This document shows, piece by piece, positions 3,007-9,157 of a stretch of 64,000 bases of DNA (its first letter is position 1; the number at the start of each line of letters is the position of its first letter). The notes under the pieces are model-generated. The model was not told where the DNA came from. It was given only the letters and a program-made list of their open reading frames with translations, and made no database searches. This DNA comes from Methanooceanicella nereidis. GTDB lineage: Archaea; Halobacteriota; Methanocellia; Methanocellales; Methanocellaceae. Location: contig NZ_PGCK01000009.1 of assembly GCF_021023085.1 (NCBI RefSeq), forward strand, positions 1 through 64,000, read 5' to 3'. A program made the translations under genes and the position numbers.

Positions 3007-3693
3007 TCAACATATGCGTACGAAGGGGCGGGGATATTTAGGTTTTTTACCCCGTATGAATATGCCTGTACGTATGAACTTTTCTTTTAGCTTTCCGTCA
3101 TGCGATCTCTCGCGGCTGTGCCATCTACCCTCAAACTCGTCCCTTGGTATGAACCCTCTGCTGCCCAGCAATTCAGGGTCCTCGAGGTAAACATTCCTCT
3201 GGTCTACACCTATTATGACCATATAATGCCCGTCGTCCCAGTCATCTGCCCATGATAACCCTTTGTCGTCCTTGTATGCCTGGACTAGCACGATGACAGG
3301 GATACCTTTGCTTACAGACATCTCAAGGTCTTTTACAGTAAGGTTTTGCCTTAGCTCGGCATTAAGGCCCAGCTTTTGGGCCACTTCAACGATATCATAA
3401 GGAAAAGTGCCGTCAGTCGAAGTGTTGCACAGCTTCATCAATTCATCTTCACGCTTGCTTATTCCCCAGTAATTAAGGACTGACTGGAGCGATGAAGCCC
3501 CGCAGGAGTGCGAAGTGCTCTGGCAGACCTGAGGCAATGGAAGTAAAGAAAGGTTTGATCTGCCGCCGGCCCTGTTTTTAATGTTAGCTCTTAGAGGATA
3601 TATCGTATTGATCAACGATAGCGCTATGATAAAAGTGATCGTTCGTACGAATGATAAAGGCTTATTTATAATTTTCATTCTCCCCCTTATCAT
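3007..3693 (-). CDS. Secreted or membrane-anchored C39-like cysteine peptidase
   Basis: A 228-residue protein with a hydrophobic N-terminal segment (about residues 15-35) acting as signal peptide or anchor, then a peptidase C39-like domain. The catalytic Cys sits in HSCGASSLQS (~63), the His in DGHYMVIIG (~155) and an Asp in EDPELLGSRG (~172). Classical C39 domains cut double-glycine leaders of bacteriocin exporters, but this one has no ABC transporter partner, so general processing outside the membrane is more likely. An alternative ATG five codons downstream (3678) follows a G-rich run that is close for a ribosome site, so the start is uncertain. The gene stands alone; 3694-3942 is an AT-rich divergent promoter region. 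Confidence 0.72.
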   Translation of the reverse strand: MIRGRMKIINKPLSFVRTITFIIALSLINTIYPLRANIKNRAGGRSNLSLLPLPQVCQSTSHSCGASSLQSVLNYWGISKREDELMKLCNTSTDGTFPYDIVEVAQKLGLNAELRQNLTVKDLEMSVSKGIPVIVLVQAYKDDKGLSWADDWDDGHYMVIIGVDQRNVYLEDPELLGSRGFIPRDEFEGRWHSRERSHDGKLKEKFIRTGIFIRGKKPKYPRPFVRIC

Positions 3694-3942: not shown

Positions 3943-4245
3943 GTGCGGATAAACATTGACGAATACGACGTAGAGCATTTTTGCTGGATATGTAAAAAGA
4001 TAGTGTTACAGCCCCGGGCAGTCATTTCCATGACCATGGATAAGACGCTGAACGGCGAAGTTCATCTACATAAAATAATGGAGATGGAATGCCACGGAAA
4101 TAAAATGATACAGGAATCCAAAACGAACCTTGTCGTGAGGTCTTTCGACATCGACGACACGACAAAAAGCTATGAGGCCAGCGGCAAGCTTGTTATGGAT
4201 TATATTGACAAGGGATATGAGATCACATATCTGAAGCTGGGATAA
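3943..4245 (+). CDS. Hypothetical 100-residue protein, stop codon at IS insertion site
   Basis: A small unrecognised protein, about 100 residues. It starts with GTG after the ribosome site GAGGT seven bases upstream. It has a CxxC pair near residues 14-17 (CWIC) and otherwise looks like a mixed alpha/beta cytosolic domain. Its stop codon TAA (4243-4245) is part of the target-site duplication of the adjacent insertion element, so the element landed exactly at the gene end without changing the product. Nothing nearby suggests a function. Confidence 0.6.
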   Translation: MRINIDEYDVEHFCWICKKIVLQPRAVISMTMDKTLNGEVHLHKIMEMECHGNKMIQESKTNLVVRSFDIDDTTKSYEASGKLVMDYIDKGYEITYLKLG

Positions 4246-4263
4246 GGGGCTGTACTAGATTAG
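4246..4263. repeat. Left terminal inverted repeat of the IS1595-type element
   Basis: GGGGCTGTACTAGATTAG is the exact complement of 5906-5923. The preceding 8 bases TGGGATAA form the left target duplicate. Confidence 0.92.
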
Positions 4264-4267
4264 AGTT

Positions 4268-4337
4268 TTATGTATCACACCACAGCCTCAACGTTTCGAG
4301 TTGTTGCCTGGGTGTTCCGTAATTAAAGATGAACTCA
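4268..4337 (-). pseudogene. Remnant of a second transposase copy (C-terminal ~22 codons)
   Basis: Read on the minus strand this encodes the same C-terminal transposase peptide as 5232-5303: a CEF...FNY stretch, then QQLETLRLWCD and a stop. The two stretches match closely over ~70 bp, with several substitutions, and lie in the same orientation on either side of the methyltransferase gene. Similarity stops at about 4338, where GC-rich foreign sequence begins. It is the last piece of a former left-hand IS copy. Confidence 0.82.
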
Positions 4338-4413
4338 CATTTCGACGAGCCACCGAGTGTAGCTCAGCCGCCCCAGCCGTTGACGATCCGCCGAATATCC
4401 CGGCTGCCTCACA

Positions 4414-5160
4414 TCACCGCGCCATCAGCGCGAACACGCCCCATCCAAGGTATTCACGCGTGTACGCGGCATAGCGTTTTGGTTCCAAAGTCAGTTTGGC
4501 TCGAACATCTTTCGCGAAGTCGTCGTTGGGATTCGCTTCGAGCCATCGGCGCATGGTGAGCCACTTGGCCGCCTCGTACCTATCCCAGCCATCTTGGTCA
4601 GCCAGAACCATTTCCACAACGTCGTAGTCGAGGTCGCCGAAAGACGCGAGAAGGTCTGGAAGCATGAGAAAGTCGGAGATAGAATCGGCATTGCATCCCT
4701 TAGCAACGTCTTCCGTCGGTGGTAACTGCCGCCAGTAGGGCTCGCCGATGAGGATGATCCCTTCGGAGAGGAGACTCTTCGCCAGAAGCTCGATGGTGCC
4801 GACGACTCCCCCACCGATCCACGTGGCACCGAGACAGGCTGCCACACCGACCTTTTCGTCGGCGACGTAGCCGACAGCGTCGCCGTGGATGAACTCGACT
4901 CGATCGGCGACTCCGAGTTCTTCGGCGCGGAGTTTCGCTTGCTCGGTGAACAACTGGCTCATGTCGATGCCGACGCCGATGATCCCGTAATCGCGTGCCC
5001 AGGTGCACAGCATCTCGCCCGAACCGCTGCCGAGGTCGAGCACACGAGTCCCCGATTCCAGGCGCAACGCCGCGCCGAGAGTGGCGAGCTTTTCTGGTGT
5101 GAACGGGTTATGGATGCGGTGAGCACTTTCGGTAATGTTGAAGATACGTGGGATGTCCAA
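4414..5160 (-). CDS. Class I SAM-dependent methyltransferase (IS passenger gene)
   Basis: A 248-residue protein with a Rossmann methyltransferase domain: SAM motif I is VLDLGSGSGEM near residues 40-50, an acidic residue follows in GVGIDMS (motif II), and HGDAVGY is motif III. The substrate is unknown; the family includes small-molecule and arsenite-type methylases, but the Cys pattern of ArsM is absent. It starts at a TTG with a strong ribosome site (AAGGAG, 8-nt spacing), so the cargo has its own translation signal. Base use is clearly richer in G/C at third positions than that of neighbouring genes, and ~75 bp of GC-rich non-coding DNA came along at its 3' end. I infer acquisition from a GC-rich bacterium or archaeon. 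Confidence 0.85.
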   Translation of the reverse strand: MDIPRIFNITESAHRIHNPFTPEKLATLGAALRLESGTRVLDLGSGSGEMLCTWARDYGIIGVGIDMSQLFTEQAKLRAEELGVADRVEFIHGDAVGYVADEKVGVAACLGATWIGGGVVGTIELLAKSLLSEGIILIGEPYWRQLPPTEDVAKGCNADSISDFLMLPDLLASFGDLDYDVVEMVLADQDGWDRYEAAKWLTMRRWLEANPNDDFAKDVRAKLTLEPKRYAAYTREYLGWGVFALMAR

Positions 5161-5231
5161 TGTAAAAACTCCTTTTACTAAGTTGTGTAATAACTGGAAT
5201 ATACCCTTTGTGATTGTTGTATATAAGGGTT

Positions 5232-5890
5232 TTACATATCACACCACAGCCTCAACGTTTCGAGTTGTTGCTTTGATGTTCGGTAATTAAACCTGAACTC
5301 ACACTCTTTCAAAAACAGTGGGAAAGAATCCGTCTGGATTCCATATATTTCCTCAGCACTCTTTTGGCCGGATCCCAAAAATTTTCAATAACATTGATAT
5401 GATTCTTACCCCTGGAAAAGTGTGTTGAATGATTAATCCGCTGATGGTGAAAACTACCGACATCCAACGCATTGTAACTCTTATAGTATCTGTATAGACA
5501 ATGCTGTCGGGCGCTATTTTGCGAATGATCACAGGCATAAGCGTTGAGCTTTTAGTGTCGTCAACAACGACAGTATGAACTTTGCCACCTCGCTTTAAGA
5601 TACCAAATACAGCTACTTTCCCAGCCGCATCTCTCCCCACTTTTACCTTTGTGCACACCACCAAAATAGCCCCCATCTAGTTCAATACAACCATCAAAAA
5701 CTTCACTGGCCTGAAGCGCCAGATGAAAGGAGATAATTTGCCTGATCTTTTTATAGAAAAGAGCTGCCGTATTGGGGTGAATATCAAGCAAATCAGCTGC
5801 TGATCTGGCGGTAACTTCCAGCACGAAATATTCAAGCAGCTTAAGTTGAGTATTTTTCTTTAATTTACAATTGGTTAGCTTCATTTTCAT
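5232..5890 (-). pseudogene. IS1595/IS1016-type transposase, broken by at least three frameshifts
   Basis: The N-terminal part (from 5890) reads through a helix-turn-helix to ELDGGYFGGVHKGK, which holds a catalytic Asp. The frame then shifts by one base in an AAAA run, and continues as VGRDAAGKVAVFGILKRGG to DSIVYTD. It shifts again to a frame giving YNALDVGSFHHQRINHS and INVIENFWDPAKR, and a third time to give FPLFLKECEFRFNY and the end QQLETLRLWCDM. Each piece is clear IS1595 transposase sequence, so the enzyme is inactive in cis. Movement would need transposase from another copy. Frameshifts at several places argue against a single programmed shift. Confidence 0.9.
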
Positions 5891-5905
5891 AGATTAGCAC
5901 ATTGG

Positions 5906-5923
5906 CTAATCTAGTACAGCCCC
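5906..5923. repeat. Right terminal inverted repeat of the IS1595-type element
   Basis: CTAATCTAGTACAGCCCC, the exact complement of the left end at 4246-4263. The following 8 bases (CGGGATAA) form the right target duplicate. Confidence 0.92.
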
Positions 5924-6120
5924 CGGGATAATTCTATCAAAAAATCCGAGGGAATGAACGGACATTCATGGCCAGTATCTTTAGCGCCTTTTCCCTGACA
6001 GGGGTTATCCTTAATGATAAAGCTATTTAATCCATAAGCGAAGAATACTCCTGCATCGAGAGATTTTAAATATCTTAAGCGCTCTAGAACGATTGGAAAC
6101 GTCATATATTGACGGGTCAA
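5911..6120 (-). CDS. Doubtful 69-residue ORF running into the IS end
   Basis: The reading frame encodes MTRQYMTFPIVLERLRYLKS..., and its last few codons lie inside the right end of the insertion element. Without the element it would have run into the 3' end of the 3943-4245 gene on the other strand. I recognise no family. It could be a small gene truncated by the insertion or a chance frame in the purL upstream region. Confidence 0.25.
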   Translation of the reverse strand: MTRQYMTFPIVLERLRYLKSLDAGVFFAYGLNSFIIKDNPCQGKGAKDTGHECPFIPSDFLIELSRGLY

Positions 6121-6175: not shown

Positions 6176-9157
6176 ATGCCTTTCAGGATCGAGGTGGCGC
6201 TAAAGCCAGAATTCAAGGACGCTCTCGGAGAGAGCATTAAACGATCAATTAAAGATCATCTTAACATCAATGTAGGCGACGTCAAGACCATAAAAGTGTA
6301 CACGGTCAACGCCGGACTTACGGACGTGGAGAAAAAAGCCGTGGCAAGCGGGCCTTTCTCTGACCAGGTAGTCCAGGAACATTCGATAGACAGGCCGCTG
6401 GCGAGCGGTTTCGACTGGCTCGTCGAAGTAGGGTTCAAGCCGGGTGTCACAGATAATGAAGGAAAGACCGGTAAAGAGGCCATCGAGGACAGGCTTGGAC
6501 GTAAGCTCGCAGGTAACGAGTCCGTACATACCTCGATGCAGTACCTTATCAGCGGAAAGCTGACGAGAGAGCAGGTAGAGAGCATCAGTAAGGAATTGCT
6601 CGGAAATGAGCTTATAGAGCGCTTTGAGATAGTCGACGGCCGTTCCTGGGACTCGCGAAAAGGGATCGAGCCTTATGTCCCGCTGGTCAGGGATACGCAC
6701 AAGCCAAAAGTCGTCGAGATAAACCTTGACGTTAGCGACTCCGAATTGATCGAGATCAGCAAGAAAGGTACTCTTGCGTTAACCCTGGAAGAGATGAAAT
6801 GCATCAGGGACTATTTTAAAGACCCGGAGATAATTGCCGAAAGAAAGAAACTTGGCCTTGGTGAGCGCCCTACTGACGTAGAGCTCGAGTCTCTGGCACA
6901 GACATGGAGCGAACACTGTAAGCATAAGATCTTTAACGCGACCATAGATTACAGGGACGGCAACCGGCAGCTGACAGTGAACAGCCTTTTCAAGTCATAT
7001 ATCAGAAAGTCCACGGAAGAAATATCAAAGAACATAGACTGGCTGGTCTCGGTATTCAAAGATAATGCCGGGGTCATAAAGTTTACCGGGGACAATAACA
7101 TCGCATTCAAAGTGGAAACTCATAACAGCCCGTCAGCGCTTGACCCGTACGGAGGCGCGATCACGGGCATAGTCGGCGTGGACAGGGATGCCGCAGGCAC
7201 AGGCCTCGGGTCAAAGGTCATCGCGCACACGGATGTGCTGTGCTTCGCTTCGCCGTACTATAAAGGAAAACTTCCGCCGAGGATATTCCACCCCCGGCGG
7301 ATTATGGAGGGTGTCGTAAGAGGCATCAAGGACGGAGGTAACAAGAACGGCATACCGACCATCAACGGGGCGATTTTGTTCGACGACAGATATGGAGGAA
7401 AGCCGCTCGTATATTGCGGATCGCTAGGCATCATGCCGGCAAAGATAAACGGACAGCCCTCTGAAGTTAAAAACGCCGACCCGGGAGATCTTATAGTCAT
7501 GATGGGAGGCCGTATCGGAAAGGACGGTATCCATGGCGCCACATTCTCATCGGAGGAATTACATGAAGGCTCGCCTGCAACTGCGGTGCAGATAGGTGAT
7601 CCCATAACCCAGAAAAAGATGCTTGATCTACTCCTTGAAGCAAGGGACATGGGATTATATAAGTGCATTACGGACAACGGTGCAGGAGGGCTTTCATCCT
7701 CTGTAGGCGAGATGGCGCAGTTTTCCGGCGGATGCGAGATCCGCCTTGAGAAAGCCCCTCTCAAATACCACGGGCTTGACCCATGGGAAATACTGTTATC
7801 TGAGGCTCAGGAGAGAATGACACTGTCAGTGCCTCCGGAAAAGATAGACGAGCTGATGGAATTATGCAAACGCCGCGGCGTAGAGGCTACGGTGCTAGGC
7901 AGATTCACAGGAAGCAAAAAATTCCATGCGCTTTACGGCGACGATACAGTCGCATATCTGGATATGGATTTCCTGCATGACGGACTTCCGGAGATGAAGC
8001 TTGAAGCAGTATGGAAAGAGCCGAAATACCCGGAGCCGGAAATATCGGACGAGGGACTCACGATGATCCTTCACGAAATGCTCTCGGACCTGAACGTCGC
8101 GAGCAAAGAATGGGTCATCAGGCAGTACGATCATGAAGTGCAGGGAGGCTCTGTCATAAAACCGCTCACGGGCAAGTATAATGACGGCCCCGGCGATGCC
8201 GGAGTGATAAGGCCTGTGCTCGGAAGGATGGAAGGCGTAGCCGTATCCAACGGAATAAACCCGTTCTATGGGGACATTGACACTTACCATATGACGGCCA
8301 ACGCTATCGATGAGGCTATCAGGAACATCATAGCGGTAGGCGGAAGCCTTGACCAGATAGCCCTGCTCGACAACTTCTGCTGGTGCGATCCGGTCTATGA
8401 TCCTGAAAAGACTCCTGACGGCCATTACAAGCTGGCGCAGCTGGTAAGGGCTAACATGGCACTCTACGATTATTGCGTCGCTTATGGCACGCCCTGTATC
8501 TCGGGCAAAGACTCGATGAAGAACGATTATAAGCTTAAGGGCGAGGACGGCAAAGAGTATAAGATATCCATACCTCCGACGGTGCTCTTCTCTGCAGTAG
8601 GTGTGATACCGGACGTCAGAAAGTGCGTAACGATGGACGCAAAGGCTCCGGGAGACCATATTTACGTGATAGGCACGACGAAAGACGAGCTGGGAGGCTC
8701 AAGGTTCTATGCCAGCCTGGGGTATAAAGGTAATAAGGTGCCTAAAGTGGACGCAAAGACAGCTAAAAAGACCTATCAGGCATTATCGTCCGCGATCCAG
8801 GCCGGTCTCGTGGCCTCATGCCATGACTGCTCTGACGGAGGCCTTGGAGTGGCCCTTGCGGAAACTTGCTTCGCAGGAGGATATGGCGCGGACATCGAGC
8901 TGGCAAAGGTGCCGGCGGAAAGGATCGGCAAGGACGCACAGGTCCTTTTCTCGGAAAGCGCAAGCAGGTTCGTCGTGACAGTATCACCCGACAAGGCTAA
9001 GGAGTTCGAAAGAATGATGGACGGGGTCACATGCGCGCAGATAGGCATGACCAGGAACGATGACCGCTTCCTTGTAAGAGGACTGGCAGGTATTCGCATG
9101 ATCGACACGATCATCGGAGCATTGAAAGATTCGTGGCAATACCCGCTGAGGTGGTAA
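6176..9157 (+). CDS. purL: Phosphoribosylformylglycinamidine synthase, synthetase subunit, with N-terminal PurS-like domains
   Basis: A 993-residue protein of the fourth step of purine synthesis, turning FGAR, ATP and ammonia into FGAM. The first ~160 residues look like two PurS-like units (FRIEVALKPEF... and DWLVEVGFKPG...), which in other organisms form a separate subunit. The catalytic part follows, with TWSEHCKHK (~245), KVETHNSPSALDP (~320) and a second AIRS-like half with GGSVIKPL (~660) and CHDCSDGGLG (~880). The ribosome site GAGGAG lies 5-6 bases before the ATG and a TATA-like AATTATAC about 45 bp upstream. The purQ gene follows after 2 bp, so ammonia comes from a separate glutaminase as in archaea, while PurS is fused here. 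Confidence 0.95.
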   Translation: MPFRIEVALKPEFKDALGESIKRSIKDHLNINVGDVKTIKVYTVNAGLTDVEKKAVASGPFSDQVVQEHSIDRPLASGFDWLVEVGFKPGVTDNEGKTGKEAIEDRLGRKLAGNESVHTSMQYLISGKLTREQVESISKELLGNELIERFEIVDGRSWDSRKGIEPYVPLVRDTHKPKVVEINLDVSDSELIEISKKGTLALTLEEMKCIRDYFKDPEIIAERKKLGLGERPTDVELESLAQTWSEHCKHKIFNATIDYRDGNRQLTVNSLFKSYIRKSTEEISKNIDWLVSVFKDNAGVIKFTGDNNIAFKVETHNSPSALDPYGGAITGIVGVDRDAAGTGLGSKVIAHTDVLCFASPYYKGKLPPRIFHPRRIMEGVVRGIKDGGNKNGIPTINGAILFDDRYGGKPLVYCGSLGIMPAKINGQPSEVKNADPGDLIVMMGGRIGKDGIHGATFSSEELHEGSPATAVQIGDPITQKKMLDLLLEARDMGLYKCITDNGAGGLSSSVGEMAQFSGGCEIRLEKAPLKYHGLDPWEILLSEAQERMTLSVPPEKIDELMELCKRRGVEATVLGRFTGSKKFHALYGDDTVAYLDMDFLHDGLPEMKLEAVWKEPKYPEPEISDEGLTMILHEMLSDLNVASKEWVIRQYDHEVQGGSVIKPLTGKYNDGPGDAGVIRPVLGRMEGVAVSNGINPFYGDIDTYHMTANAIDEAIRNIIAVGGSLDQIALLDNFCWCDPVYDPEKTPDGHYKLAQLVRANMALYDYCVAYGTPCISGKDSMKNDYKLKGEDGKEYKISIPPTVLFSAVGVIPDVRKCVTMDAKAPGDHIYVIGTTKDELGGSRFYASLGYKGNKVPKVDAKTAKKTYQALSSAIQAGLVASCHDCSDGGLGVALAETCFAGGYGADIELAKVPAERIGKDAQVLFSESASRFVVTVSPDKAKEFERMMDGVTCAQIGMTRNDDRFLVRGLAGIRMIDTIIGALKDSWQYPLRW

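Follow-up and report, generated by a model that had tools for sequence, protein, structure and literature searches.

A dead IS1016-group cargo transposon in methanogens, probably derived from a direct-repeat composite around a cassette-type methyltransferase gene

The element at positions 4246-5923 of the window (the whole stretch of 64,000 nucleotides of Methanooceanicella nereidis DNA that was analysed) is best explained, with a probability of roughly 0.77, as a dead cargo transposon that derives from a direct-repeat composite of IS1016-group copies and carries a cassette-type gene. A whole-genome search showed that the element is present as a single copy. IS1595 passengers and IS1016-group composites are already known; as far as the literature searched goes, what is new is the archaeal host range, the apparent cassette origin of the passenger, and a series that leads from a composite-derived unit to its relics. 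The same literature yielded no account of the element, nor of a YjhP-like cassette or its function.

The outer ends of the element are well preserved (Table 1). The initial annotation had described perfect 18-bp inverted repeats and an 8-bp target duplication with seven of eight positions matching, and both hold: the repeats pair at 18 of 18 positions (4246-4263 with 5906-5923), and the flanking octamers, tgggataa (4238-4245) and cgggataa (5924-5931), are identical at 7/8. The terminal repeats start with GGGGCTGT, as they do in IS1016-group members, and the 8-bp duplication of that group is found both here (7/8) and in the related copy L003, in which it is perfect (8/8, AATTTTTT). Since L003 has an 8/8 duplication of its own, its insertion is separate from that in the window. 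As in a transporter IS, the passenger lies within one pair of ends that has its own duplications at two different sites, which supports the view that cargo and ends would have transposed as one unit. In the window, the insertion occurred at the stop codon of an open reading frame (3943-4245), and the stop was retained by the target duplication. When a clean empty site was sought in a relative, G019 proved only 67% similar, and to one flank. The neighbourhood also contains a C39-family peptidase (3007-3693, minus strand; PF03412, PF13529) with a possible N-terminal signal segment, and a 993-aa open reading frame (6176-9157, plus strand) that, judged by eye, has the appearance of a PurS-PurL fusion.

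Table 1. Features of the element and its target site (window coordinates)
Feature	Position	Strand	Basis
Left target duplication, tgggataa	4238-4245	unstranded	sequence
Outer left terminal inverted repeat, GGGGCTGTACTAGATTAG	4246-4263	unstranded	18/18 complementary to 5906-5923
Left IS stub: terminal repeat and last 23 transposase codons (CEFIFNYGTPRQQLETLRLWCDT, then stop)	4246-4339	-	85% repeat of 5215-5303; translation
Microhomology ACTCACA (TGTGAGT on the gene strand) at the junction of stub and cargo 3' flank	4333-4339		bacterial flanks vs internal IS
Cargo 3' flank, common to bacterial cassette copies	4340-4413	-	blastn matches of bacterial loci extend to 4333-4335
Cargo: class I SAM-dependent methyltransferase, YjhP-like, 248 aa, TTG start	4414-5160	-	structure and Pfam matches
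Cargo 5' flank (48 nt): Shine-Dalgarno AAAGGAG, TATA-like box of archaeal type GGTATATTCC	5161-5208	-	
Internal left end of the right IS (terminal repeat, decayed), GTGATTGTTGTATATAAGGG	5209-5228		same register as the outer repeat
Right copy of the IS (IS1016 group), 715 bp, complete extent, broken transposase	5209-5923	-	natural size 709-732 bp
Transposase pseudogene	5232-5890	-	NF033547 and PF12762 matches; frames 5890-5561, 5676-5353
Right terminal inverted repeat	5906-5923	unstranded	pairs with 4246-4263
Right target duplication, cgggataa	5924-5931	unstranded	sequence

The transposase had been annotated as a broken member of the IS1595 type, and it indeed no longer lies in one frame: its readable parts occupy at least two (5890-5561 and 5676-5353), which match different parts of the IS1595 model NF033547; with at least two frame breaks, it is not the intact transposase of an IS1016-group element. 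Over the 137 residues that can be read, it shares 68% amino acid identity with ISAba36 and 64% with ISEc69. Its C-terminus, FPLFLKECEFRFNY...LRLWCDM before the stop, resembles those of intact IS1016-group members, and the C-terminal stretch FLKECEFRFNY carries the ECEFRFN motif of the group. Moreover, its full length, spanning two frames, corresponds to the IS1016-group type (approx. 217 aa, no N-terminal zinc ribbon). There is no space for such a ribbon in the window transposase, whereas the approx. 290-aa IS1595 transposases of the host's phylum possess one; these were considered as relatives and set aside as a separate group. These matches place the broken transposase in the IS1016 group (IS1595 family), of which the element is a dead member.

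No second IS1595 transposase was detected in the genome besides the window's own, and because the element is likewise a single copy, there is no active helper at home. The full-length active transposase that the initial annotation had in view elsewhere was found neither in this genome nor in the relatives searched. In particular, no intact close IS was recovered across the searched genomes of the phylum, or from the host genomes of near-basal copies in a search that had no positive control, and comparison of the transposase with phage records gave no match. Intact IS1016-group elements do occur in the class to which the host of locus L089 belongs; however, at only approx. 50% identity they were rejected as close relatives.

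The history of the element is recorded mainly in its duplicated left end. The second copy of the transposase 3' end, initially put at 70 bp, is real, but its length was underestimated: the direct repeat (4251-4339 and 5215-5303) spans 89 nt at 85% identity, in the same orientation. The comparison set was ten cargo-free IS1016-group elements, namely ISAba36, a single ISEc69 unit, and eight found in the class to which L089's host belongs; they measure 709-732 bp and encode 217-219 aa. A duplicate natural to the family, the case in which the initial annotation would have given up its two-copy model, is absent from them, as none of the ten contains a direct copy of its own last 95 nt. The right part of the element ends on the cargo side in a relic of a terminal repeat that is less decayed in relatives (GTGACTGTTGTGGATAAGGG in L164 and L169, GTGACTGTAGTAGAAAAGGG in L166, and GTGACGGTAAGAGATAAGAG in L163) and that comes closest to ISAba36, whose natural 3' repeat has the form ...GATAAGG. 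Compared with shuffled sequences, the internal repeat reaches p <= 0.03 in eight of twelve copies and 0.04 in two, and is not significant in L005 and L162; the copies are related, and these tests are thus not independent. Because the cargo-free elements are single-ended, and given the 715-bp size of the right part and its relic, this part is best read as an entire IS, and the 94 bp on the left as the end of another one.

The junction between the stub and the cargo points in the same direction. Bacterial relatives of the cargo continue beyond the stop codon into GGTGGCTCGCCGAGATGTGAGTGCGCC (e.g., L039), and where the IS reads AAGAGTGTGAGTTCAGG, the element reads GGTGGCTCGTCGAAATGTGAGTTCATC, so that the crossover falls within TGTGAGT. 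This is the trace that would be expected from a short-homology deletion within a composite. A composite transposon with two complete direct IS copies is no longer present, the left copy being 94 bp long, and no copy with two full IS around the cargo was found among those examined. Nevertheless, the IS-sized right copy, the relic, the microhomology, and the lack of a natural duplicate all speak for the originally proposed two-copy composite with a deleted left copy, which can be regarded as well supported. The outer left repeat (4246-4263) ends in GATTAG, the right-end form; natural left ends and the internal relic have GATAAG. The simple composite model leaves this ending unaccounted for, and the outer left repeat may have been converted to the right-end sequence.

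At least 22 genomes of the phylum contain cargo copies with IS ends; these genomes are distributed over five families and include Methanoculleus sediminis (L028) and a Methanoregula (L046). None of the copies has an intact transposase. With LE and RE denoting the left and right ends, LE' the internal left end, and tnp the transposase, the copies can be arranged by what remains of them: LE-cargo-LE'-tnp-RE (the window and L003), LE-cargo-LE'-RE (L046), LE-cargo-RE (L177 and L178, two copies of one genome), LE-cargo (L006 and L027), and the right IS only (L004 and L005). In L046 (3833-3867), the transposase is missing, and the right end, which is nearly palindromic (GGGGCTGTATTAGATTTGCACATTGGCTCATCGAGTACAGCCCC), is joined to the internal left end. 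Copies L164, L167, and L171 share an insertion site and were therefore inherited vertically. In the gene tree, in which the initial annotation had proposed to place the methyltransferase, the phylum's 20 copies group together as one moderately supported clade (SH-aLRT 81), and five copies scored as IS-less nest inside the archaeal clade. Such nesting implies one capture followed by loss of IS parts, and the architecture and decay products shared by at least 22 genomes of five families indicate a capture that is old and apparently single. The element, initially presented as an unusually clear intermediate, is rather an old and dead one, with the same architecture and decay products throughout those genomes. 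Locus L027 has the outer left end, is assigned to a Desulfobacca MAG, and is placed just outside the archaeal clade; as a 3.3-kb contig, it may be misbinned. On the contig of L165, the cargo 3' flank and an IS left end lie immediately upstream of another cargo copy (L073:261-467), a tandem such as would result from recombination between left ends.

That tandem fits the strongest alternative to the two-copy composite, in which a circle bearing the cargo and one left end recombined by homology with a lone resident IS, at its left end, and gave rise to LE-cargo-LE'-tnp-RE in one step. Translocatable units are on record for such repeats (PMC12561309), and L006 and L027 consist of the cargo and one left end, with the right IS missing. 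However, the 94-bp piece of IS on the circle needs an origin of its own, a prior composite or a deletion, so the circle requires an earlier step of the same kind; moreover, a deletion leaves just such a microhomology as the left junction shows. We consider the circle unlikely. Less probable still is that the IS inserted repeatedly beside a resident archaeal methyltransferase gene: although four copies (L008, L012, L175, and L176) have no recognisable IS end, the junctions at 4335-4340 and 5208/5209 recur across families, the IS-less copies are nested within the IS-bearing clade, and L011 and L013 retain a repeat-like tip next to the promoter. The least credible proposal, that this IS subgroup naturally has the 94-bp stub as its left end, gains something from the presence of the stub in all IS-bearing archaeal copies that retain the outer left end, but it is ruled out by the single left end of the ten cargo-free group members, by the in-frame transposase C-terminus that the stub encodes and the right copy has as well, and by the right copy being IS-sized by itself.

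The cargo of the composite-derived unit resembles E. coli YjhP (PDB 1nkv, residues 1-248) and the PDB entries 5bp7 and 5epe along its full length. Matches to 1nkv (E 1e-123), 5bp7 (E 3e-144), and Pfam Methyltransf_31 assign it to the YjhP-type methyltransferases. The initial view of a GC-rich gene with a TTG start and a strong ribosome site is borne out: its GC content is 59.3%, which none of the 252 windows of 747 bp in the 64 kb reaches (their median is 47.5%), and the Shine-Dalgarno sequence AAAGGAG is in place. The TATA-like box is found at about -45 in 17 of 22 archaeal copies and is a candidate archaeal-type promoter. The reading frame is intact in 23 of the 25 copies that are not truncated by contig ends (the exceptions are L009 and L164), and the median dN/dS is 0.19; by these sequence measures, purifying selection keeps the cargo while the IS decays. 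In E. coli, yjhP belongs to the topAI-yjhQ-yjhP operon, the genes of which are among those that tetracycline induces most strongly (PMC12121999). Its knock-out has no growth defect, and m6A in mRNA is not due solely to any of four candidates that include yjhP (PMC12096079). The wide mobility of the cargo and its purifying selection would suggest a methyltransferase acting on small molecules and useful under occasional stress.

A scan of the genomes of 84,980 species located the cargo at no fewer than 567 confirmed places (at least 567). The best 80 of these matches are 85-96% identical and are spread across many phyla; the bacterial relatives among them (loci L027-L106) are mostly 85-90% identical in amino acids, again across many phyla. 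Such high identity across phyla, together with similar non-coding flanks, indicates lateral movement. Bacterial homology starts at GTTAGGC, exactly 48 nt upstream of the start codon. Cassette sites were counted by position, attC scans of whole loci having been either too strict or too noisy. Of 75 bacterial loci, 24 have GTTRRRY at exactly -48, where the average offset has 0.11, and 8 of 77 have RYYYRAC at exactly +47, where the average is 0.15. The cassette sites also yield a palindromic attC consensus. The core sites at -48 and +47 and this consensus mark integron-cassette boundaries, and by the criteria of boundary and attC the bacterial relatives would be integron gene cassettes. An integron integrase above the family cut-off occurs in 13 of 42 host genomes and in none of 14 controls; it was found once on the cargo's own contig (L098), approx. 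27 kb away.

The archaeal copies retain the cassette 3' flank as far as the IS junction, but their TATA-like box (17 of 22 copies) occupies the place of the cassette's 5' recombination site. In the window copy, the 3' attC of the cassette is absent, and the 5' boundary is replaced by GGTATATTCC. Archaeal copies without the right IS diverge from one another approx. 48 nt before the start codon, which is the distance of the bacterial cassette boundary. In the window, the 48-nt 5' flank of the cargo likewise stops at the position of that boundary, -48. In Pseudodesulfovibrio pelocollis (L089:4767-4870), what follows the cargo is similar to the junction of the IS stub (GTGTGAGTTCCTGTTTCACT) and may be an eroded IS end in a bacterium.

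From these data we infer the following history; its reconstructed parts are the ancestor with two copies, the order in which events occurred, the direction of transfer, and the step from cassette to IS. A yjhP-like gene would have circulated in bacteria on a cassette; its boundaries are seen in present-day loci. Two direct IS1016-group copies would then have bracketed it, as suggested by the relic, by the presence of a second left end, and by the IS size of the right copy. A deletion at the 7-nt microhomology TGTGAGT probably left only the last 94 bp of the left copy, with the transposase 3' end of that copy and the cargo 3' flank as the presumed partners. The outer left end and the right end of the right IS would thereafter have served as one transposing unit that generates 8-bp duplications, as two sites support, while the right IS's own left end, out of use, decayed. 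Finally, in methanogens, the transposase decayed and the cargo was retained, with a TATA-type promoter of archaeal appearance. It can tentatively be proposed, at somewhat less than even odds, that the whole is a vector relay across domains: from a bacterial cassette to an IS1016-group composite, to methanogens and among archaeal families, and on to domestication, with the promoter at the former recombination site.

How a composite shrinks to a single cargo unit becomes readable from three traces, namely the old end now buried, the stub, and the microhomology of the deletion, and the relatives supply successive stages in the decay of such a unit. As the IS1016 group also mobilises mcr-2 (PMC7835479), an understanding of how its composites evolve helps to trace resistance genes. 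Here one gene that moved between bacteria and methanogens links two vectors, integron cassettes and IS1016-group elements. The element also draws attention to a very widely shared, conserved putative methyltransferase.

Transporter IS of the IS1595 family carry a passenger within a single inverted-repeat pair, beside the transposase. The window element shares this layout and adds a buried second left end that shows how the passenger entered, and its transposase, in contrast to that of a transporter IS, is broken in all present copies. Integron gene cassettes, those of Archaea included, are described in an account whose main text names neither methyltransferases nor transposases (PMC9668308); bacterial copies of the cargo share cassette boundaries and attC, whereas the archaeal copies have lost attC and are carried in an IS. 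E. coli YjhP is the operon partner of a toxin-antitoxin pair (PMC12121999), while the window cargo stands alone in its IS. Among composites, Tn7052 of E. coli, ISEc69-mcr-2-orf-ISEc69 with directly repeated ISEc69, has two direct IS around a foreign gene, as would the ancestor proposed here (PMC7835479). It also resembles the window element in its IS1016-group transposase (64% amino acid identity), its GGGGCTGTAC ends, and its 8-bp duplications; however, both of its IS are complete and active, whereas the window element has a 94-bp left stub, a dead transposase, and another host and cargo. Tn7560 (ISApl4), a pseudo-compound transposon of Actinobacillus with a 712-bp IS and a 217-aa transposase, likewise belongs to the IS1016 group, makes 8-bp duplications, and consists of direct IS copies around its cargo (PMC12561309). 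It is an intact composite that carries four resistance genes and has undergone no deletion to a unit (PMC12561309), whereas the window element is reduced.
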